Origin: Dolomedes plantarius
Lineage: Eukaryota > Arthropoda > Arachnida > Araneae > Dolomedidae
Direction of reading: 5' to 3'
Assembly: GCA_907164885.2 (NCBI GenBank)
Contig: OU015490.1
Coordinates: 92,315,799-92,379,798 of the forward strand
Length of the DNA: 64,000 nt
The notes beneath the pieces are model-generated. The model made no database searches, was not told the DNA's origin, and saw nothing but the letters and a program-made list of their open reading frames with translations. Shown here in pieces: positions 7,801-58,565 of the stretch (its first letter is position 1; every line of letters begins with the position of its first letter). Made by a program: the position numbers and the translations under genes.

Positions 7801-10800
7801 TCTTTCAATTAAAATGTTTAATTCTTGTAAGTTGTAATTTCATTTGGTTCACAGTCAATTACACTGAGTATTTTTAAGTAACATTAAAAGAATGCTATTT
7901 TTAAAAATTATTGAGTAATATATATAATATGATGTTTTGACATGGTAATTTGTACACTAGAGACCTTATGGTAAGCCAGTGAATACTTCTTTTCTTGTAG
8001 TAGTCTTACACTATGCATAGCTGTTAATATTCCTGATTTATCTAGGAATGCTGCAGTTTTTCCATCTTATGACTTGCCAATCACAAAAGATGACTTCAAA
8101 ATTCAAACTTAAGTTGTAACTATAACTGAGCATGTAGCATAAATCTCAAACAATATGTAGATTTTATCACTGAGTGATTTTACCGGCATTCAGATTTTTC
8201 TTAGTGTGTTAAGAGTAATCTTACAAACTCTGAAATTTTTAAATTTGTAATTTGTTACATAAAAATACTCAGTGTAATTGACTGTGAACCAAATGAAATT
8301 ACAACTTACAAGAATTCAGCATTTTAATTGAAAGATAATCATTTAAATGAAGATATGAAAAAATATATACCAAGCTTAAAAAGCTTAAAATTCATGTATA
8401 GAAAATGTAGGTAGGACAAAAAAGTCCTTCAATTGTGTGCAGATGAGCATAATTTTATTTTTTACTGCTGAAACTGCAGAAATATTGTTAGCAATGAGTT
8501 ATAAGCTTTCTCTATTTGCATTTAGTCATTAAATTTAAGAGTGGTTTTGTCATTGAAAAGGGGAGTGACTTTCTTTTCTCTAGTTCAGCATTTAGTTGAT
8601 ATTTTTTGCCTGAATATATGTATAATGTAAGTATCAGAGATCTAAGTTCTAAGTATTTAATTGATTCATTTATTACTTATTGTATAGGATTTGTAATTAC
8701 AGTCAAACTCTGTATAGCGAACCTGGTATATAACGAACAAAAATTTTGGTCCCACTGTTTTCCTATAGTACATAATTTAATCAGTATTATGTCAGTTTAA
8801 TGTAATCCATTTTAGTCGATTTAATTCATTAATGATCATTTTTAATATATTTTATCATTTTATAAATACATCATTATTGAATACACATTGCAACTAATGA
8901 GTTATACATTTTGTGAACTCTAGCATTTTTCGTAACGGTTCGGATATAGCAAACCACCTTGCCGTCATCCGCCTTCCAGGCCGTCACGTTTTCGCTGCCC
9001 GACTGGCTGCGGCGTCCTTCGAGCGGGAGACAAATGCGCCTGGCTTGCACTGTACGTCGCAGTCGGATGGCCTTGTTAGTGGGAATCCCTGCTTAAAGTT
9101 CATTATAATGGGGTTCGACTGTACTTGTAATTTTTAAATTGATATTGCTTTATTGTACAGTGTTTGAGTAACATTTTTTGATGTAGGTGTCCATCACCCT
9201 CTAACAGGAGCTTTACCTGCCTGCACACCCTCTGCAGTGCCCAATTTTGCACTGGGGGAAATTCCTGCCCAAGCTGATATTTATGCCAATGATGTAGCAA
9301 ACTTATCAAGTAAGCTTTCTTGAAGATACTCTGAGAAATACTGCTGCTGTTTTTAAAAGAGCCCCTTTTGATAGCTGAGTTTTGCATACAGAAACTGTTC
9401 AATTGTCCCAAAATACCTAGAGATTATTCAGATTTTTATAATCTTCATCTATTTATAGATAGCTACTAAATTCATAGATTTGTGAATTATTCTCTTAATG
9501 TAAGAATCCATTTAACATAGTATTTGGTTCTTTTTATTGTTGGAGCAATAAACTTTGTATATATAAATTGAAAAGTTCTAAATGATTTGAATTATGTACT
9601 AAATGACTGGCTTAATTTTGAAAGTTACCACAGCTTGAGTTATGAATTAGATTAATATACTTGCATTGATTTATGTGTATGTTTTTTTTTTATATATATG
9701 TAAAACAAATATGTTTTGTTTACATCTAGATCTTCCATAGAATGCATAACTTTCTAGGAATTACTGGTCTGTAAAAGTAACTATTATAAATGAACATAAT
9801 GAAACAGAAGACCTATTTTAAATTTTAACTCCTAAAATATACTAATTTCACATTATTTCCAGTCTTTGCTGACATATTTTTAAAATAAAATTTAGAGGTG
9901 CTTCTGAGATTTTTATGCTAATAGTGTCAAGCAGGAAAAACATAGTTTAAATGCTAGATGTGCATAGGTGAACTGTTCTGAAAATAATCCCTTTTCATAT
10001 TTTGTAATTTCATATCCTAATGTTCATTTTTATTAAAAATATATTTAGGCAATGAGGGTAAATTTTGCAAAGCAAATTTTTAAGCTTTGTAAGAAGATAA
10101 AAATTTTCAACAAAAAATCAGAAGGTCATAACTTCTTCACATATGTTGAACTAGCTGAATACCCATACTTCACTAAGGAGTACATTCAAATTAAATACAA
10201 TGGTCAATGTATGCAATTAATGCCCCTCCCCCCAACAAAATATATATATATATATTTATAAAAAATCGTAATGGATATTTTTATAGACAAAATAATGTAG
10301 AAGAAAATATTCAAATTAAATACAGCAGTCAATGTATGCAATTAATTTGTATGTTTAATATCCATAAAACATACTAATTTGAATTAAATTCTTTAGAAAC
10401 TTCCATCTCAATTAGTCTAGTGGTTAAATTTTATCTTTTACGTATTTTAATATTTTTTTGTTGTCAATTTATTTCGTCATTATGCACGTGACGCAAAATT
10501 AATTTAAAGTATCACAAAAAAAAAAAAAAAGAAACCACGTGATCAGCATTTAATAAATTAAATTCTAAAAATTAATCTTTTAAAATTCACCAAAAATCAG
10601 AAAATGAAGGTAAAGATTCGAAAAAGATTTCATTTTAAAGGAATTTTCATGATCTTTCTCATGATATAAATTTTATAACCCTCAGATTATTATTTGCAAA
10701 CTTTAAAGAATGTTACAAAAACAGCTTAAAAATTTAATTTAAAAAAATCTAAGAAATTTTTCAAAAATCTGTCTTACTGCGCCCTTACCTATATGAAGAA

Positions 10801-44300: not shown

Positions 44301-45732
44301 TAATTTTGAATGTTTGGGTGAACCCTGATACATTTTATCACTCTAGAATACATTTAAATAATTATCATGAATCAATATATTCTTCAGTAATGCATGAAAG
44401 ATGGTTTGTACAAGAGTGTCAACTCTATTCATAGGTCATAGCTTAAGTTTAGTAGCAACTAAACTATAGGTATTCTAACTAAATGTCTGAAAAGGTTATG
44501 AATGCTATGTTAACTTTATGAGGATTATTTGATTTTGCTTTTGAGCAGTTTCATAATTTACCCTAAGTATTTAGTAGGATTAAAATTTTACAAACTTCTT
44601 TACATATTTTCTTAGCAATGAATAGTGAAATTCATCAATGAACTTCAATCTCATTTTCAATTATAAGTAGAGTAAAATTTGCTGTTATACTTTTAAACTT
44701 AATCTTTTAACATTTTTTAAGTTATATTCTAGAAATTTAAATATGTAATTCACGTATCTTAACTAAAGACAGAAAATATATTCTGTGGATTTTTAATGAT
44801 TTTTTCTCTATGCTGGTACTTTTTGAAATCTGTTCTATGATCTATGAATTTTTAAACCCAGTTGTAAAAGTAGTAAAATTGTACAGACCTGAATTTTTAT
44901 GTACGCAAGATAAACTTTATTTTAAATTTAGACAAAATTTGTACTATAAATCAACTTTTTCTGTTGATATTAGAAATTTTTTGATATTTTCTAAATGTAT
45001 TAAGTATATATAAATTTTCTATATGTGTATAGTTTTTAGGAAGTAAATATTTTTGGAAACTAACTGTGCAAATTAGCAATGTAAAATTATGCAGTTTTGA
45101 AAATATTTGTTAAACGAATAGGTTTATACATCATAAATTGTGCTGCATACAATTTCTCTTAAGAATAAAAATTTGAAAAATCATGCATTTAAAATGTAAA
45201 TAATTTCATGTATGAATTCAATGTGTTTCAATTAAGTTCTGTATATACATCAACATATATATTTAGCATACATTTTATTGATTTCTACTTTAACTCATTT
45301 GAGATAATATGCTTTGAACTTGATCTGAAAAATGATATACATGCCTGAATTTGGGATATGCTACTTTGTTTTCCTTACATGATGTTAGCATAGAAGCATA
45401 TAAATACATTCATAATTTGTAATGTTTATAGAAATAGATATTTTGCGAGAGACTCTTGTTCATTTTTCTCATCTTGTCCTGTATGCATGACACAGCAAAC
45501 AAGCAATGCATCAAAGAATGCAACAATCTTGCATCGCATAGCAAAAACAAATTCTGTAGAATTTGCAAGTTAGTGTAATTTATAATGTTATTACTGTCAA
45601 GTATGACATGCCCGTGCTACTTCATTTTAATTCAAATGTGCTATGAATTTTCTGTACACTTATAACAAAGTATATTAAATAAAAATGTCATTTACAAAAA
45701 TGTGTGCATTTCTTCGATTGTTCCGTTTATAC
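41329..45732. other. noncoding AT-rich stretch
   Basis: No gene or transposon ends recognised on either strand, apart from a simple ATGC-rich repeat near 41521. AATAAA-type words near 43637 and 45680 are possible polyadenylation signals. Confidence 0.5.
41521..41572. repeat. ATGC-rich simple repeat
   Basis: Alternating ATATGCATGCATGCATAC words ending in GTGTGTG. Confidence 0.75.
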
Positions 45733-46080
45733 CAAGATAGCCTAGTGGTAGCGCGTTGGGCTTTCAACTGTGAATGCTCTGTTCAAATCCCGATGAACAC
45801 CATTCAATATCTTAGAGGCACATTAAATACGTAGACTGGAGAGGCCTTCCACAAGGGCAGTGGGTGGGGGAAAATGCGAACCGTCCAGATGTTGCCGCCG
45901 GGGTTGCTCGATCAAAATTGCGGTAACACCAAAGGAGCAATGTGTGGCTGACCTGTATGGTGCTCCTGTATAAAAAGTAGTCAACAGTTTTCGCGGTAGA
46001 CAGTGCTAATGTCTCAGGATAAGTGTCTCCGGTTCAGTCAGAAAGAAAAGGTACTTCAGTTTGCTCTCTTACGTTATTTG
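45733..46080 (+). mobile_element. tRNA-derived SINE
   Basis: The head has A box TAGCCTAGTGGTAGCGCG and B box TGTTCAAATCCCG about 35 nt apart with anticodon-stem-like GGGCTTTCAACTGTGAATGC between them. A GC-rich body (about 45830-45950) follows, then AAAGAAAAGG near 46044. No mature acceptor stem can be built, so it is not a working tRNA gene. It ends just before the Helitron cluster. Confidence 0.75.
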
Positions 46081-46263
46081 CAGTTGATTTATATAAAATT
46101 AGCGGCCCGTCCCGACTTTGTCCGGGTTGAACAAAATATTATACCAATAAATTTCCAGTTGATAGCCAATAAATTGTAAATCTTTTTTTACCTTAATAAT
46201 AACCTAAATAATACCTTAAATTAATTTTATGTTAGTTAATAATTAAAATAAATTTTTTAAAAG

Positions 46264-46350
46264 AAAAAGGCGTGCCGGAGAACGGCTAGGTTCGAACCGC
46301 TAGCGTCAGAACAGAAGCCCACCGCGATAGCACCACGCTAAGGATCGTTG
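46264..46350 (-). other. tRNA-like A box/B box segment inside Helitron
   Basis: On the - strand: CTTAGCGTGGTGCTATCGCG (A-box/D-arm-like), GGGCTTCTGTTCTGACGC (anticodon-arm-like), then GCGGTTCGAACCTAGC (B-box/T-arm-like). Flanking GTGCCG and CGGCAC could pair. A full cloverleaf is not convincing; best read as a captured tRNA or SINE head. Confidence 0.5.
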
Positions 46351-46566
46351 AAGACTTCGGCACAAAAAGCGGTAGAGGACAGTAGCGGTAACAATGGAGA
46401 TTGTTAGGATTAAGCCCCTAACTTTATTTCTACTGATCAGATATACATAATATATAGCCTATGTCCATCTGGATTACTGTACCTTTCAAACAGTGAAAGA
46501 ATTTTTCAAATAGGTACAGTGGTTCTGAAGATTACCCTCCACGTACAAAATCGCTCTCTCTTTATA

Positions 46567-48759
46567 TCTATATCTATAAAGGAAGAAGTCCTGACTTATA
46601 TATATATATATACATACACGTATCAACGCCCAGCAAAAACTATTGGAGATACAGATATCAAATTTTAGGAGCTTATTACTTTTGTGCTGAAGGCGTCATT
46701 TAAGAAGCGATTTTTTAAAATTCGCCCCCCAAGGGGGGGGGGGCAAAACGTGTTTTTTACATATTCCTTCATATCTCAAAGAAGGATATTGATATTCATA
46801 ACATTCTTGCTTTAAAATGTAAGTAACATGAATACCTAAAAACCGATTTCAGGATTTTTCAAAATTAGGCCCCCAAGGGGGGGAGGGGGGGAAACGTGTT
46901 TTTATGTGTTTTATCACATTTTCCTTCATATCTCGAAGAAGAAAACAGATATCCATAAGATTCTTGCTTTAAAATATAAGGAACATAAATACCTAAAAAC
47001 CAATTTCAGGATTTTTTGAAATTCGGCCCCCATGGGGGGGGAGGGGGGCAAAACGTATTTTCCCATATTCCCTCATATCTCAAAGAAGGAAATTGATATC
47101 CAAAAGATTCTTGCTTCAAAATGTAAGGAACTTGATTACCTAAAATCAGTTTCAGGATTTTTTTCAAAATTCGGCCCCAAGGGGGGGAGGGGGGCTAAAC
47201 GTGATTTTACGTGTTTTTCATATGAAACGGATATCCATAAGATTCTTACCTTAAAATTAAAGGAAGCCGAATACCTAAAAATCAGTTCCAGGATTTTTCA
47301 AATTTCGGCCCCCCCACAAGGAGGGAGGGGGGGGGCAAAACGTGTTTTCCTTCATATCTCAAAGAAGGAAATTGATATGTTAAAGATTCTTGCTTTAAAA
47401 TGTATAGAACATGAATAAAATGAAGAAAATTGATATCCATAAGATTCTTGCTTTAAAATGTAAGAAACATGAATACCTAAAAACCAATTTCAGGATTTTT
47501 CAAAATTCGTCTCCCAAGGGGGAGAGGGGGGGGGGCTAAACGTGTTCTTACGTGTTTTATCTATATATATAAAGGAATCAACACCAAGCAAAAACTATTG
47601 GAGATACAGATATCAAATTTTAAGAGCTTATTACTTTTGTGCTGAAGGCGTCATTTAAGAAGCGATTTTTCAAAAATCGCCCCCCAAAGGGGGGAGGGGG
47701 CAAAACGTGTTTTTTACATATTCTTTCGTGTCTCAAAGAAGGAAATTGATGCCCATAAGATTCTTACTTTAAAATGTAAGGAACACGAATACCTTAAATC
47801 CAATTTCAGGATTTTTTTAAAATTTGGCCCCAGGGGACGGGGAGGGGGGCTTAACGTGTTTTTCACGTATTCCTCCATATCTCAAAGAAAGAAACAGATA
47901 TCCATAAGATTCTTGCTTTAAAATATAAGGAACACGAATACATTAAAACCAATTTCAGGATTTTCAAAATTCGGCCCCATGGGGGGGGGGGGCAAAACGT
48001 ATTTTTTACATATTACCTCATATCTCAAAGAAAGAAACAGATATCCATAAGATTCTTGCTTTAAAATGTAAGGAATATGAATACCTAAAAACCAATTTAA
48101 GGATTTTTCAAAATTCGGCCCCCAAGGGGGTTAGGGGGGCTAAACGTGTTTTTTACATATTCCGTCATATCTCAAAGAAGGAAACAGATATCCATAAGAT
48201 TCTTGATTTAAAATGTAAGAAACACGATCAATGTCACGATTTTTCGACATTCGCTTTAGATTTTGAAAAAATTGCTAGAAACAATCCAATAATTTATATT
48301 TCCTATATATATCACCATTTTGAACACCAAATTGGTGGTAGGAGAAAAGAGAGAGATCAACCTCAATTAAATGAAGTGTGGAAAGGTGTGTGTGTTTGTG
48401 AATTGTATATATTTCGGTTGTTAGTACGTATACATCTAGAGCTCAGGTTAACTCCATTCATTTTTATTATCCTGGGCAACGTCAAGTAATTCTTTGTTTA
48501 TGAAACCGGCGATTTTCACAAGGGTTTACGGGGAAGCCCTCAAACTCCTCGAAGGGCCGGGATCCAGTGGGTTATCAAAATTGAAAGAAACATTTTAATG
48601 CTGACATTAGCATGGGGGGGGGGGGGAGTTATTATAATATGCTGATGGGATGATGACCAGTGGAGAGGGATATAGATTGCCATAAAATACAAATATACAT
48701 ATCATACAAGTAAGCTTTATTAAGGGTTCACCCGTGCAACGCCGGGTATATAAAGCTAG
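46567..48759 (+). mobile_element. Helitron family 3 with internal minisatellite, nested in family 2 copy
   Basis: 5'-TCTATATCTATAAAGG at 46567 directly after A46566; 3' hairpin CACCCGTGCAACGCCGGGT then ATATAAAG and CTAG ending 48759, followed by T48760. A second 5' end (TCTATATATATAAAGG) occurs at 47560, so it is a partial head-to-tail dimer: 46567-47559 lacks a 3' end, 47560-48759 is complete. Both share CAAAAACTATTGGAGATACA and GCTGAAGGCGTCATTTAAG. No coding capacity. Confidence 0.85.
46720..48240 (+). repeat. ~145-bp minisatellite, about ten units in two blocks
   Basis: Each unit has CATATCTCAAAGAAGGAAA, GATATCCATAAGATTCTTGC, TTTAAAATGTAAGGAACA, ACCAATTTCAGGATTTTTC and a GGCCCCCAAGGGGGG run. 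G runs near 46730, 46875, 47033, 47178, 47325, 47517 (block 1) and 47690, 47830, 47979, 48123 (block 2). The blocks are split by the second Helitron 5' end. The open frame across block 1 is not a gene. Confidence 0.93.
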
Positions 48760-48770
48760 TATAAGTATAG

Positions 48771-49020
48771 ATAGCACCACGCTAAGGATCGTTGAAGACT
48801 TCGGCACAAAAAGCGGTAGAGGACAGTAGCGGTAACAATGGAGATTGTTAGGATTAAGCCCCTAACTTTATTTCTACTGATCAGATATACATAATATATA
48901 GCCTATGTCCATCTGGATTACTGTACCTTTCAAACAGGAAAGAATTTTTCAAATAGGTACAGTGGTTCTGAAGTTTACCCTCCACGTACAAAATCGCTCT
49001 CTCTTTATATATAAGTATAG
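48771..49020 (-). repeat. tandem 250-bp copy of family 2 Helitron 5' end, unit 1
   Basis: Starts ATAGCACCACGCTAAGGATC and ends CTCTCTCTTTATATATAAGT plus ATAG. Nearly identical to 46325-46566 plus 48760-48770. Only the 5'-terminal 250 bp of the element is repeated. Confidence 0.9.
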
Positions 49021-49271
49021 ATAGCACCACGCTAAGGATCGTTGAAGACTTCGGCACAAAAAGCGGTAGAGGACAATAGCGGTAACAATGGAGATTGTTA
49101 GCATTAAGCCCCTAACTTTATTTCTACTGATTAGATATACATAATATATAGCCTATGTCCATCTGGATTACTGTACCTTTTAAACAGTGAAAGAATTTTT
49201 CAAATAGGTACAGTGGTTCTGAAGATTACCCTCCACGTACAAAATCGCTCTCTCTTTATATATAAGTATAG
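49021..49271 (-). repeat. tandem 250-bp copy of family 2 Helitron 5' end, unit 2
   Basis: Head-to-tail with the unit at 48771, about 97% alike. The family 1 Helitron at 49273 follows after one base. Confidence 0.9.
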
Positions 49272-49345
49272 ACTAGCTGAATACCCGTGCTTCGCTACGG
49301 AGTACATTCAAATTAAATACAACGGTCAATGTATGCAATTAATGC

Positions 49346-49349
<4 letters not shown>

Positions 49350-49411
<62 letters not shown>
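49350..49411. repeat. (TA)n(TG)n microsatellite
   Basis: TA repeat changing to TG repeat inside the family 1 Helitron. Confidence 0.93.
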
Positions 49412-49868
49412 AGATGCTAGAAGCATAAACTATATTTAATTATATTAATGAGCGTTAAACGGTAATTTCCTATTAAAGTCCTAGTGTATTTTCCAATTCA
49501 GGAAGTAAATTGTTTTTCTCAGCGAAGAGTTCAGGGTCACCGAATTGCTCGCACGCGCTGGCTGATGTAATCGCCAGAATGTTCGAGAGAAGGGGCTCGA
49601 GATGATAGCCCACGCTTTTATATAACGCGTGAGAAAGTAAAAGCGCAGTTTTAGGGATATTTTTATAGATGTACGACGTGCGTCTGTCGTGAGCTGAGAG
49701 ATGATTGAAAATGGCGATTTAGCTGGGTTAATTGGGTATTCACTTAATGCTAATTAATAAAGTTGTTTAAATGTTAATTTAGCATTAGTTCTTCCACTGG
49801 CCTATTGTTTTATGACTGCAATTTAGAGTAATTAGTTTGTTAAAGGGTACGCGGCGAAGGGCCGTGAC
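49405..49868 (+). mobile_element. solo-LTR-like insertion
   Basis: Absent from other family 1 Helitrons. Starts TGTGAGATGC and ends GGGCCGTGACA (TGT...ACA), contains a TATA-box-like TTTTATATAACGCG (49616-49629) and an AATAAAG (about 49757) spaced as in an LTR. No reliable target duplication because the site is a simple repeat. Confidence 0.4.
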
Positions 49869-49874
49869 AAATAA

Positions 49875-49880
<6 letters not shown>

Positions 49881-49921
<41 letters not shown>
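49881..49921. repeat. (TA)n microsatellite
   Basis: TA repeat resuming the Helitron core after the LTR-like block. Confidence 0.9.
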
Positions 49922-49923
<2 letters not shown>

Positions 49924-50861
49924 CGTAACGGATATTTTTATAGACAAAATAATGTAGAGGAAAATATTCAAATTAAATACAACGGTCAATGTATGCAATT
50001 AATTTGTATGTTTAATATCCATAAAACATGCTAATTTTAATTAAATTCTTTAAAAACTTCCATCTTCATTAGTCTGGTGGTTAAATTTTATCTTTTACCA
50101 TATTTTAAATTTTTTTTGTCAATTTATTTCGTTGTTATGCACGTGACGCAAAATTAATTTGAAGTATCACAAAAAGAAAAGAAACCACGTGATCAGCATT
50201 TAATAAATTAAATTCTAAAAATTAATCTTTAAAAATTCACCAAAAATCAGAAAATGGAGGTAAAGATTCGAAAACGATTTAATTTTAAAGGAATTTTTAT
50301 GATCTTTCTCTTGATATAAATTTTATAACCCTCAGATTATTATTTTAAATGCAAACTTTAAAGAATGTTACAAAAACAGCTTAATTTAATTTTAAAAAAT
50401 CTAAGAAGAAATTTTCAAAAATCTCTCTTAGTGCACCTTTACACTATATGAAGAATCGCCATGCAAAATTTCAGCCCTTTGGCATTTTACACGTCCAGCG
50501 ATTTGGTCTGTGTGTTATATGTCAGTCAGTTACGGAACGGTTTTATATATATGGATTTCGTCAGTTTTGCGTATTTTTAAAAAAGTTTTAGTTTTTTAAA
50601 TTGCTTTATTTAATATTTTGGAATTTAAAATTTTGTTCCATAAGTGAGTCTTTTTATAAATACAATGAAAATTACCTACCCCCACAGTATGTCAGATGTA
50701 CATGTTTCTTGTCATTTAAATGTCTAATTTCTTTATCAAGGATTCGTAAGCGCCTACAAAACTGTCAGAGAAAATGAAATAGGATATGCATGCAAGTCCG
50801 GAAATATCCGTGAAAACTCAAAAATGACTTTCTCCTAAAATTTGCAATTTTCATAGAATAA

Positions 50862-51039: not shown

Positions 51040-52536
51040 TAACTGTCGTAGTAGTCCAGTCCATTTGTGCTCAAAAGGGGCCCTAGAGGGAAAATTTTGG
51101 GGTAGTTTTGATTTCTTCCATTTTATATGTTTTTTGGGATGCTGAATCCGAATCTGAGGTTTGTTAACAAAATTTCGTGACGCAACATTGAAGAAAATGC
51201 AAAAAAAGGTAAAATTTTTCACTTTTTGGCTGTTTTTTGCTTATAACTCGGAAACTATCAACTTTTCGTATGTAACCCCATTATTTAAAATGAAAGTACA
51301 TAAAATTTCCTACAAATTACACTATTTAGGTTTTTTCTCCGACGGACATTTTGGGCTCAAGCGCTATTTGAAAATTGGCGTAATTCGGCTGTCTCCGCAA
51401 AACCCACTTTTCCCACTCCAAAACTTTAATTTATTATTAAAGGCTGTCATTTAATTCCTCCTTTCAATACAATGTAGCATTTTCAAAATCCAGAGACCAC
51501 TGAACTAATGTCACTAAGTACAGGTGTTGTCGCAGATGAGAGGATCAACTGCCACTTGTCCAAGGAGATGGGCATGATAGGTATACAGCGCATTGTTGGT
51601 GGTCGATTTTCAAGTTGTAAAATTCAAACGAGGCGAAATAGTACGGCCTCTTGCGATCATGAATAGCTCTATTCAGATACAAGACAGGGATGTAGTCATC
51701 AATCCAACCACACTTTTCCAACGAATGACCATCGTGAAGCATTCATATGAAGAGCTGCGAGAATTTTTTCGTTACGAACTTAGCCCCTACCCTCTCTCTC
51801 TTTTCGATGAGCATGGGATGAGGAAAGGAACAAAATCGAGCTTGTACAGGGCTTTTACACCGACTCCAACTGAACAGGGGAACTTGAGCGATTCAAAATA
51901 TGTCATTGACGGAGGGTTTTTGTTACACCGGGTCAAATGGTACCACGGCCAAACATATGCAGAAATTTGCAGCTGTTATGTGTCATATGTCAAGTCGAAC
52001 TACAAATCAAATGCCGTTGTCATTTTTTATGGCTACCCTGACGAAGCTTGTGAAAGCACCAAGCGCATAGAACAATTGAGAAGAGCGCAAAGAAAATAAT
52101 ATGCTGCAATATCATTTACAGAATCGATGTTGCCCACTGTCTCGCAGGAGAGTTTCCTTGCAAACTCCAAAAACAAGAGCCGGTTGATATCTATGCTAAT
52201 GGAAAAATTTGATAATGCAAAAATTTATTCACAGCAAGCTGTGGAGGACACTGATATCCTAATTATCACAACAGCTCTTATGTTAGCCCCTTCAAATGAA
52301 TATGTGACAGTGGTGGGGGAAGATATCGACCTTTTGGTGATTTTGATTGGCCTGTGTGGCCCTGATATAAAGAACGTCTTTTTGAAACCAGGAAAAGGGA
52401 AGATGTCTCAAACCCTCTACAATCCCCATCTTGCCGCTGACAAAATCCTATCAGACCATATATTGTTCCTGCACGCGATGAGTGGTTGTGACACCACTTC
52501 TGCTTTGTTTAATCAGGGGAAACTGAAATTTCTTAA

Positions 52537-53909
52537 CCCGTCGTTGGTCGCACCAATTTGAGTAACGCCAGTGGTCGCGCGTAAGGGCTTTTCTCACACT
52601 ACCCATTTCCGTTGTTTTAAGTTGTCTGCTCAACAATAACACTTCAAAATTGTTTCTTTTCTAGGAATTGCATTAATATTAAGCAATCACGAGCAAGGAA
52701 ATTACAATTAAAATAATTATTTTAAAGCTATTATTCAGGAAAATTAATAGCGAAAGTGAAATTAAAAAATCATACCTACTTTATGAATCAAATTAAAAAA
52801 AACATATTAACTGTACTTTATTAGAACGTCAACTGAAAGTCTTATAAATGAGACGAAATGGACCTGGTAAATAAAATATTATACTATAAGTATTTATTAA
52901 CACAGCATTTGGGGCATACGTAAGTTGAATGTTCGGTACAAATAGGTCGCGCACAGGTAACACAACCCTTTTTTGGCTTCCTATTTTTTCTTCGAGGACA
53001 GAATGCACAAAATCCGGTGGTTTCAACATTTCGTTTGATTCTTGAGGAGCCATCAACTCCTGTTATTTGGCTAATTGCACTTCGCAATGCTGGTGACAAG
53101 TTTGGAACTGAATAACGGTCACCAGGTGAGGTTTCATGAGTTCCAATGCTAATTCCTTCAAGAAGGCTCGTCTAGCCATCGTATTGTTTGTATTTGCAGT
53201 ATATATAATTTGGCTGTTGATACCACCAATGTTCATGATCGAAAAAAATAATGTCAATGGCCATCTGCGACTTATTCTCGAAACAGAGTACTCATCTTTG
53301 AGTTCGTCGACTACGTCGACACCACCCTTAGTGAGATTATAAAAAGTAATAATCTCTGGTTTAGAGAGGACGCCAGAATCTTTATCTATTTTTTTACCAT
53401 TGTGCAAAGAGGAATAAAGAAGAACATTCTTCCCTTTCTTTGGAATATAAGACACTAAAGTGTAGTTGACGAAAACGCAAACACACTTCTTCTCAAAAGT
53501 AAAGTTCCCAAAAGTAATATTTTCTCAAAAGTAAAGAATAACACTGATCAAAATGCGCTTCTAACAAACAAAATTTGCAAATAAAATTAGGAGATAAATG
53601 TACTCACATCATCGCGTTATTAAATAACACAAATGCTGGTGGTCTCTTGATGAGAAACGCTCTCACGTGATGCAAACGCCAGTGGTCGCGCGATGAGAGA
53701 AATGCTCACACAAAAAGACACCTAAGCAAATAGCAGGCTGTTTGAAGGTCAAACACGCCCTAATTTTTATCTTAACTGATAACAGATTGTTGAGGAGATT
53801 CTAAAAGTCAGCTAGACAGGGGGTGGTGTCCCCAGGGTCATTTTCAAATAAGGGGTGCAATTTATATGACAAGTGTGAGAGAAATGCTCATAGCGCGACC
53901 AATGACGGG
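52537..53909 (-). mobile_element. piggyBac-type element, internally deleted
   Basis: TTAA at 52533-52536 and 53910-53913; TIRs CCCGTCGTTGGTCGC and inverse CCCGTCATTGGTCGC. A second shared word AACGCCAGTGGTCGCGCG lies 27 bp inside the left end and again at 53675 in direct orientation. 1373 bp, retaining only the end of the transposase gene. Confidence 0.93.
52884..53455 (-). pseudogene. piggyBac transposase C-terminal part
   Basis: Frame 1 (53455 down to about 53100) reads VLLYSSLHNGKKI, KPEIITFYNLTKGGVDVVDE and SRRWPLTLFFSIMNIGGINS, the final part of the DDD-type catalytic core and the insertion that follows it. After a frameshift near 53090 the second frame gives the C-terminal cysteine-rich finger CAFCPRR...CVTCARPICTEH...YVCPKCC, which binds DNA ends in piggyBac enzymes. 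The N-terminal half, including the first catalytic Asp residues, is deleted. Non-functional. Confidence 0.88.
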
Positions 53910-55407
53910 TTAAAGTCCTGCAGAGGAACAATGACTTGTAACCAGTCATTGATCCTTTCAAAGACCCTCAGGCATACCAGGACGAGATTGCCGAAGCAGG
54001 AAACGTGTTTCTCATGGCTCTGTATGAGAAAGGACATGAGATTAGCCTGAACGATTTGAGATACAGGCAATACGTATCTTCATCATACAAAAGTGAAACT
54101 AACATTGCCTCACTACCCCCCACCGAAGCTGCTGCACGACAACATTCACTGAAAGTTTACTTTCAGATGCAGCAGTGGTTATCCGGTCAAACCACACTCG
54201 ACGAGCAACAAAGAGACCCGAACGAGTGGGGTTGGAAAAAAACAAGGAATGGTCTCGTGCCAGTGCCAACCACTTTGAACCCTGCACCGGACTCGATACT
54301 TCGGCACATTTCTTGTAAATGTAAAAAAGGCTGCCAACGCAATTGTTGATGCAGTAAAGCTGGCCTCCATTACTCCCCGATCTGCACATCGTGCGAAGAG
54401 CTGTGTGAGAACGTCGAGCTCCCGGAAGACAGCATTGACTTTGACGAAGAAGAGACCGTAGAACAGACTGAAGAAATACGCTTGCATGATGCGGAAGGTA
54501 TGTCTAATCTCACAATCTATTTCGTAATCAGTCATCTCTCCTTCAGATATGATCACAAGTCGTCGTTTTCTCACCACCTCTTTCATTTTCCAGATGAACA
54601 AGCCCCGACGCTGACGACAGAACAACCCGAACCTGTACCAGGACTCGCCGCCTTCGAAGAACCTCAGCCAGGACCCTCTAAACGACAACGGCTCATATAA
54701 TAATGTAATATATGATCATATGTATACAATATAATAAAATGTAATAATTTTTCAAGATTTTTCGTTGGAATTTCATTTTTTTTGTAACTGAATTTGTACA
54801 ATTTCGGACTTCATTAAATAACTTGAACATTATTTTATTTTTGAAAAAATTACCTGTACCTCTACATATACGATCTAAATAAGGTATGTGCAGAGAAATG
54901 GGAGGAATTCACTAATTGACAGCCATTAATAATAAATTAGAATTTTGGAGTGGAAAAAGTGGGTTTTTGCGGAGACAGCCGAAATACGCCAATTTTCAAA
55001 TAGCGCTTGAGCCCAAACGGTCCGTCGGAGAAAATAACCTAACTAGTTAAATTTGTAGGAAATTTTATGTACTTTCATTTCGACTATGGGGGGGGGCGGG
55101 GGTTACATACGAAAAGTTGATAGTTTCCGAGTTATAAGCAAAAAACCGCTAAAAAATGAAAAATTTTACCTTTTTTTGCACTTTCTTCAATGTTGCGTCA
55201 CGAAATTTGTTAACAAACTTCAGATTCGGATTCAGCACCCCAAAAAACATATAAAATGGAAAAAATCAAAACTACCCCAAAATTTTCCTCCTAAAAACAC
55301 TATTTGACTGGACTATAGCTACACGGCGAAGTTTGGAGTGATTTTTTTATTCCTCAGCGATCTTATTCGTAAATCGATCGCTAGTTATTACGGAAAATAA
55401 GTAAATA

Positions 55408-56816
55408 CACTCATGGACAAAAAAATTAGCGCACCAAGAAGGAGTCGTCAAAATGAAACGAAATTTTACATACGTAATGACTACTTTGATATAAGTAAAT
55501 GATAAGAAAATCAAAGAAAAGGGATAATTTATTTCAGAGAAAAAGGCAAAAGAACGGAGGAGTTAATACTCCGTTGGACCCCCTCTAGCGCGAATGCACG
55601 ATGCGATACGATCGGGCATTGAGTCATACAAGTTCTGTATGATGTCTTGAGACATTTCGTTCCATATTTGCTGTAACCTTGCCTCTAGTTCGTTCAACCT
55701 CGTGGGATGCCCAACTCGTCGTCCCAAATAATCCCAGATATGCTCGATTGGAGACAAATCTGGGGATCGGGCAGGCCAAGGAAGGGTAGTAACAGTGCGG
55801 AGACAGTCTTGTGACATCCGTATGAGGCTGAGCATTGTCTTGTTGAAAAATGGCTTCTGGGAGCCGTTGCATGAGTGGCAAAACATGTGGTTGCAGGATT
55901 TCATGAACATACCGCTGGGCTGTCATGGTGCCACGGAACAATACTAGGGGTGACCGTGTATTGTAGGCAATGGCACCCCATACCATCACACCAGCTGTGG
56001 GAGCGATGTGTCGCTGTACAGCAAAGGCAGGATTGAAGCGTTCAGCACGAGCTCTCCACACACGAACACGATTGTCATCACTGCCGAGATTGAATCTGGA
56101 TTCGTCGCTAAAGACGACCCGGTTCCATTCCGCTGCAGTCCAGTTTCCTCGTGCGCGGCAAAACTCCAAACGGAGGCGTCGATGGGTGGGCGTCAAGGGC
56201 AGCACACGTAATGGGCGCCGCGATACCAACTGTCCTTCAGCCAGGCGCCTTCGTATGGTTCGAGAAGACACAGAGGCCCCTAGTGAAGGTGCTACCTGTG
56301 CCTGGATGGCGGCCGATGAAGCAGTTGGCTGTACGCGTGCATTTCTTACGATGTGGTGGTCTTCTCGACGACTGGTCTGTCGAGGGCGTCCTGAGCCTGG
56401 TCTTCGTGTACATGACATCTCTCGGGTCCACTGGTCCCAACACCTCCTCACAACACAATCAGAGCGGCCTAATTGACGAGCTACTCGCCTAGCTGACCAC
56501 CCAGCTTCCATCATCCCGACGATTCTCCCCCCTCTCAAACTGCGACAACTGCTTATATTGTCTTCGAACACGGCGTAATGGCATGTCTATCTCAGCTCTT
56601 CCTTTGTAAATGATTCAGCACACTCAAAGAAGCTTTGGTTACCTGTTTTATACTCCACAGAGTACGATGTTCAACGCCCTCTACCGGCTATACGTAATGC
56701 GCAATCACGCTGCATTTCTAATCATTTGCATATCTCCCCGACATGTACCTTCATTGCAAGTTTCGTTACGATCCCGCAATTATTTCTTGGTGCGCTAATT
56801 TTTTTGTCCATGAGTG
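55408..56816 (-). mobile_element. Tc1-type transposon, near full length
   Basis: 33-bp perfect TIRs (CACTCATGGACAAAAAAATT, then AGCGCACCAAGAA) flanked by TA (55406-55407, 56817-56818). 1409 bp, almost filled by one transposase gene. It is markedly GC-richer than the surroundings, which suggests a recent arrival. Confidence 0.96.
55563..56584 (-). pseudogene. Tc1-family DD34E-type transposase, two frameshifts
   Basis: The natural start is ATG at 56584 (MPLRRVRRQYKQLSQFERG). A six-G run at 56526-56531 carries an extra base and shifts the frame into GRIVGMMEAGWSARRVARQL (first helix-turn-helix) and GSGRPRQTSRRED (GRPR hook). First catalytic Asp in VFSDESRFNL, second in IFQQDNAQPHT; a second frameshift lies near 55805-55830, and the third residue, Glu, is in ARSPDLSPIEHIWDYLGRRV in the next frame. 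Ends ASCIRARGGPTEY, stop at 55563. About 340 residues in total, normal for Tc1. All catalytic residues remain; only two small indels disable it. Confidence 0.92.
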
Positions 56817-58054: not shown

Positions 58055-58565
58055 TATACATTTATAAAAGAATCGTAAGGGATATTTATTTTTTTTGGAT
58101 AATATCCAATCGTCTGCTGCATTAGAAAGAAAAAAATATTTTTTTTTGTCTATTTAGTTGTTATTCACGTGACGATAAATTTATTAAAAGTACCAGATAA
58201 AGAAATCACGTGATCAGCATTTAATAAATTAAATTCTAAAAATTAATCTTTAAAAATTCACCAAAAATCAGAAAATCGAGGTAAAGTTTCGAAAAAGATA
58301 TCATTTTAAAGGAATTTTTATGATCTTTCTCGTGATAAAAATTTTATAACCCTCAAATTATTATTTTAAATACAAACTTAAAAAAAGTTACAAAAACAGC
58401 TTAAAAATTTAATTTAAAAAATCTAAGAAGAATTTTTCAAAAATCTTTCTTAGTGCACCCCTACACCATAAGAAAAATCGCCATGCAAAATTTCAGCCCT
58501 TTAGGTCCAGCGGTTTGGTCTGTGCGTTGTATGTCAGTGAGTCAGTTCCGGAACTGTTTTATATA

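Follow-up and report, generated by a model that had tools for sequence, protein, structure and literature searches.

Layout of the locus

We analysed a stretch of 64,000 nucleotides of Dolomedes plantarius DNA (hereafter the window, in whose numbering positions are given unless a contig is named), in which Helitrons of three families lie beside and within one another. The features discussed here are as follows, with a caret marking a junction:

46099..49272, minus strand: family 2 Helitron (host element), with its own-strand TC at 49272 and CTAA at 46099, then T
46111..46126, minus strand: putative family 2 right-end hairpin CCCGGACAAAGTCGGG, recognised by eye and differing from the minimum-energy fold
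46567..48759, plus strand: family 3 Helitron insert, 2193 bp, TC...CTAG
47560..47576, plus strand: second internal left end of family 3, TTTTA^TCTATATATATAAAGGA
48730..48747, plus strand: family 3 right-end hairpin ACCCGTGCAACGCCGGGT, a predicted stem of -5.3 kcal/mol with DNA parameters
49003..49020, plus strand: intact paralogous target site in unit 2, from site restoration and the cut-point scan
49254..49271, plus strand: second intact target site, in unit 3, from site restoration and the cut-point scan
49273..50555, minus strand: family 1 Helitron, with its own-strand TC at 50555 and CTAG at 49273

At its left end, the family 2 host has three left-end units in tandem, each about 250 bp long, and it is cut by family 3. 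Each unit opens with the left end TCTATACTTATATATAAAG, which follows GTGCTA in the two internal ones, and the last unit runs on as GTGCTA^TCGCGG where the others have a left end. Of 30 fetched stretches, some of them overlapping, 20 showed a family 2 right end; 19 of these ends read CTAG and one CTAA, and T is the next base in all 20. The window copy, TC...CTAA^T, shows the TC/CTRR ends and the 3' T of a canonical Helitron. Family 1 abuts the TC of family 2 as CTAG^TC. Within the window, family 1 right ends read CTAG^T in 6/6 cases and left ends A^TC in 5/6, the copy near 58565 having a decayed left end; the other right ends lie at 10151, 13781, 19847, 57808 and 60272 (CTAG^T in 5/5).

Several further features surround these elements. 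Five pairs of inverted-repeat arms (55-110 nt, 85-96% complementary, 3.5-4 kb apart) lie around open frames at 51084-55293, and inside them a DDE_Tnp_1_7 fragment, which we take to be piggyBac-type, occupies 53063-53524. A Tc1/mariner-type transposase frame with an HTH_Tnp_Tc3_2 domain runs on the minus strand at 55624-56586. The stretches 45733-46060 and 46290-46350 (minus) have a tRNA-derived, A-box/B-box-like look; ARAGORN gave 0 tRNA genes in 45000-50000, so this likeness is one seen by eye only. Rfam gave 0 matches in the window at the gathering threshold.

A nested insertion and its restored target site

When 46567-48759 is excised and A46566 is joined to T48760, the join reads CTTTATATATAAGTATAG and exactly rebuilds the neighbouring tandem unit of family 2. 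The same sequence stands uninterrupted at 49003-49020 in unit 2 and at 49254-49271 in unit 3. The original prediction, made from the letters of the window, had recognised the identity between the join and an intact copy; its interval, 49007-49020, lacks four bases of the site, and the intact copy in unit 3 escaped it. A probe of 20+20 bp across the join matches 48990-49029 exactly. The predicted split of family 2 between A46566 and T48760 also came out best of 19,600 cut-point pairs: it is the only cut by which the unit-2 site is recovered in full, at 60/60 bases against 46/60 for the runner-up, and likewise the unit-3 site, at 41/41 against 38/41. Beyond the join, the flanks stay in register with the other family 2 units, at 99.2% over 241 bp and 97-98% over 263-268 bp, which excludes chance. 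In this alignment no base is extra or missing at the rejoined site, as had been foreseen, and the exact match to the paralogous intact units bears out an insertion without target duplication.

Two limits apply to how this site is read. First, T46567 equals T48760, and the insert boundary can therefore slide by one base; it is the Helitron convention A^TC...CTAG^T that settles its last base. Second, what serves as the empty site is another tandem unit of family 2, a paralogue and not an allele; the same kind of evidence appears as 'paralogous empty sites' in passages of PMC4067079.

Because the target lies within TATATATA, which could hide a short duplication, and because the two T's coincide, the insert might instead be a cut-and-paste, TA-targeting transposon with terminal inverted repeats whose TA or TATA duplication is masked by the TA-rich site. 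However, the TA stretch is complete in both intact units, and hence nothing was duplicated; other family 3 copies have flanks free of TA repeats at the join (for example GGAGACA^...^TCCATT and GCGACAA^...^TCAATA), and the ends are TC and a hairpin with CTAG. We rejected this explanation on the intact units and the non-TA flanks, and consider it extremely improbable.

The ends of family 3 were compared among copies from across the host genome. A search of the 2.78-Gb genome, in which the window is C1:92315799-92379798, gave at least 74 matches, with the best 40 of 1,942 candidates scored, and at least 13 rows among the matches listed, the window included, cover the whole query. The comparison comprised 12 full-length copies, namely 11 fetched loci and the window; locus L016 was excluded on account of an additional outer part. 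Mean identity over the 30 bp inside the ends was 99.4% on the left and 98.9% on the right, and over the 30 bp outside them 32.2% and 38.6%, respectively. A precedes the left end and T follows the right end in 12/12 of these copies. Among the family-3-type ends of 39 fetched regions, left ends read A^TC in 61/66 cases and right ends CTAG^T in 35/35; the five deviating left ends comprise three that are register-shifted (L017, L018, L020) and two with TA for TC (L023, L032). Copies reaching past the TC or the CTAG, which would have spoken against the original prediction, were sought among the 12 and not found: all stop at the same two ends, and the earlier reading thus withstood this comparison. 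Family 3 has the TC/CTRR ends of canonical Helitrons, inserts at A^T and, in the window copy, leaves no target duplication, and its predicted hairpin stands 12 nt from the terminus, CTAG included, where about 11 nt is canonical. With A^TC...hairpin...CTAG^T and genome copies sharing these ends, the assignment to a CTAG-type Helitron is supported.

The locus itself occurs three times in tandem, at C1:92364558, 92381914 and 92399253, about 17.35 kb apart (L027, L028). The copies at C1:92381914 and 92399253 repeat its right part, and since family 3 starts in both at the equivalent of window 47214, the tandem duplication probably broke inside family 3. A position in such tandem repeats could lead one to suspect that the structure is an artefact of assembly. 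However, the right junction with family 2 is seen in three local copies, and unrelated loci on other contigs have the same ends; an artefact is accordingly most unlikely.

Taken together, we put the probability at about 96% that family 3 is a non-autonomous canonical Helitron, which a RepHel transposase inserted at an A^T site of family 2 without target duplication. Its ends, its A^T target, the unduplicated target and the dispersed copies with the same ends are directly seen, and the nesting of family 3 in family 2 is an ordinary event that happens to be unusually clean. The insertion lies 12 bp inside a left end of an older non-autonomous element, family 2, on the opposite strand. Its chemistry was presumably rolling-circle or proceeded by a circular intermediate, with the RepHel enzyme probably supplied in trans. 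In the insert, no long open frame was recognised as encoding a transposase. A long relative with the family 3 left end (L043 2896-3327, L078 2-439) encodes an OTU-like protease domain (PF02338, E 3.3e-07) and has a repeated AVARYQKAKPE segment. RepHel was recognised neither in the parts of this relative that were read nor in family scans of 7 and 3 selected open frames; the relative is possibly the remnant of an autonomous partner.

Composites with several left ends

The family 3 insert is a composite with two left ends (46567 and 47560) and one right end. This arrangement recurs: among the 39 regions, the ratio of left to right ends was 2:1 in 21, 3:1 in two (L016, L034), 4:1 in one (L029) and 1:1 in ten, and in five either the left or the right kind was missing from the stretch read. 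Several left ends with a single right end occur in both family 2 and family 3, and the left ends are spaced by about 250 to 1,770 bp, apart from one 20-nt case. The flanks of the composite differ from site to site, consistent with its moving as a unit that includes both left ends and the single right end. L041 is an element of the outer type that has a right end of its own.

A composite of this kind may have arisen in two steps, with an element inserting at an internal A^T of its own kind and transposition then starting from the outer left end and halting at the first right end. Two internal junctions with intact siblings agree with the first step. A left end stands exactly at TTTATTAA^TATGCG in L016, L021 and L029, and the site is intact in L041, L043 and L047; likewise, a left end stands at GGAAGAATA^TTTATG in L047, and the site is intact in L043. 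At both sites, 24/24 bases before the junction match, only T is common after it, and the intact siblings read A^T. In family 2, the junction GTGCTA^TC likewise has a counterpart at an A^T, GTGCTA^TCGCGG in the last unit. In addition, L070 has a family 2 copy inside a family 2 left end, with both halves of the host kept (GTGCTATCTA^TC...CTAG^TACTTATATATAAAG).

Alternatively, the extra left ends could stem from microhomology-mediated tandem duplication or unequal exchange between units, without self-insertion. TC is common to the left end and to the family 2 and A^TCACAT sites, and family 2 has 2 to 12 left ends per fetched stretch, mostly after GTGCTA, which fits unequal exchange. Not all junctions read A^T either. 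The commonest internal junction, which is also the window's own, is TTACGTGTTTTA^TC; its closest intact relatives read T^TACATA (22/24 bases; L026, L042), whereas the A^TCACAT relatives match only 20-21/24. In L029, a 20-nt duplication of the tip has an intact relative reading A^A and hence not A^T, and the internal left end TGATCA^GTAG of family 2 (L057/L074) is a second exception. Moreover, genome searches did not turn up the nested progenitors of the amplified composites. For the TATGCG site, nine one-mismatch matches were found in the genome, none continuing as the outer element and seven of the nine ending like family 1 right ends; another site gave three matches against two for the reversed control, and the family 2 search gave 0 matches.

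On the other hand, in two families the left terminus is exactly where the repeats begin, the T alone is shared at the TATGCG and TTTATG sites, and L070 shows same-family nesting with both halves present. We therefore regard duplication or exchange as a serious but less probable source of the extra left ends, and self-insertion followed by a halt at the first right end as the likeliest origin of the composites, a conclusion of which we are less sure than of the nesting. Unequal exchange probably also alters the number of units here.

Target sequence beyond A^T and relation to known Helitrons

We then considered whether the targets share more than A^T. All the loci obtained together yielded 67 distinct right flanks of four end types, the flanks of L081-L089 having been left out since TATA is part of the pattern by which these loci were found. 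T comes first in 67/67, and 51/67 have a TATA beginning at position 6 or 7, compared with 9 and 8 at two control offsets. After removal of 13 TA runs and 15 flanks loosely matching left ends, 24 of the remaining 39 had TATA at 6-7, compared with 5.4% of 14,265 A^T sites of the window (binomial p about 4e-21, a descriptive value because the motif was seen in the same data before the test). A partly independent set of 33 listed family 1 flanks, chosen for TATAAA further out, had ATA from position 8 in 21/33; without TA-rich rows the figure was 11/21, against a background of 6.9%. At the N13 spacing, the family 1 right-end controls matched 1,170 places in the genome with TATA and 33 with TATAAA, and the TATA control consisted mostly of TA repeats among the approximately 100 matches listed. 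On the left side, A is the last base in 69/74 flanks, and T stands at -2 in 48/74, where 24 would be expected.

The left ends of the Helitrons themselves resemble this downstream TATA pattern. By stricter matching, 8/67 flanks lie inside left ends of family 1 or of the family 2 type, two of the eight being the window's own, listed under the local duplicate L048. A position-weight score placed left ends at the 78th-92nd percentile of the window's A^T sites, with a median at the 94th for the 39 training flanks. The four candidate sites for self-insertion fell at the 91st, 76th, 48th and 3rd percentiles; because of these percentiles, the idea that left ends mimic targets is only moderately supported.

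We propose only tentatively, and with more doubt than belief, that the transposase picks its targets by a left-end-like motif of about TA^T N4-5 TATA(A), on the 3' side of the cut. If so, Helitron left ends would be landing pads for other Helitrons, which would account for nesting at left ends, for abutting elements and for the accumulation of many left ends in composites; a TATA(A) positioned downstream as in the donor left end would tie donor and target recognition together. For Helraiser, PMC4778049 describes a strong AT-rich preference within about 20 bp, most at the 3' flank, with A^T not absolute, and an excerpt of PMC13286980 gives AT dinucleotides for wheat Helitrons. A positioned TATA was not found in the portions of Helitron literature text covered, whose sequence-logo figures could still hold such a motif.

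As far as the accessible text of the cited papers goes, the elements described here agree closely with canonical Helitrons. TC/CTRR ends and insertion at A^T without duplication are the rule stated for Helitrons (PMC4067079), which the present nesting confirms in one more genome. Helitron1 and the bat Helibat/Helraiser elements likewise start with TC, end in CTAG with a 3' palindrome and insert at A^T without duplication, and 5'-to-3' abutting is reported for them as it is seen here (PMC4778049, PMC4067079). Unlike Helitron1 and Helraiser, the copies here are non-autonomous, rich in repeats and equipped with several left ends, with no RepHel in the places read. The oyster Cg_HINEs, Helentrons carrying repeats, are similar in being non-autonomous rolling-circle elements with central tandem repeats; however, TT is suggested as their insertion site, whereas the elements here use A^T and end in CTAG (PMC7492417). 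Membership of the Helentron or HINE (Helitron2) group was rejected on the A^T rather than TT target and the CTAG end.

For the composites, the nearest parallel is FoHeli of Fusarium, with several 5' termini and one 3' terminus, for which self-insertion followed by a stop at the first 3' terminus has been proposed; FoHelis resemble Helitron2/Helentrons and their duplicated part is typically below 200 bp, whereas the ends here are canonical and the spacing wider (excerpts of PMC5148889). Nested Helitrons are also described as a source of multi-terminus elements in an account from maize, as proposed here, but that case has three 3' termini, in contrast to the multiple 5' termini of the present families. 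Spread composites with some intact sibling sites readable base by base, as found here, are useful for testing where Helitron copying starts and stops.
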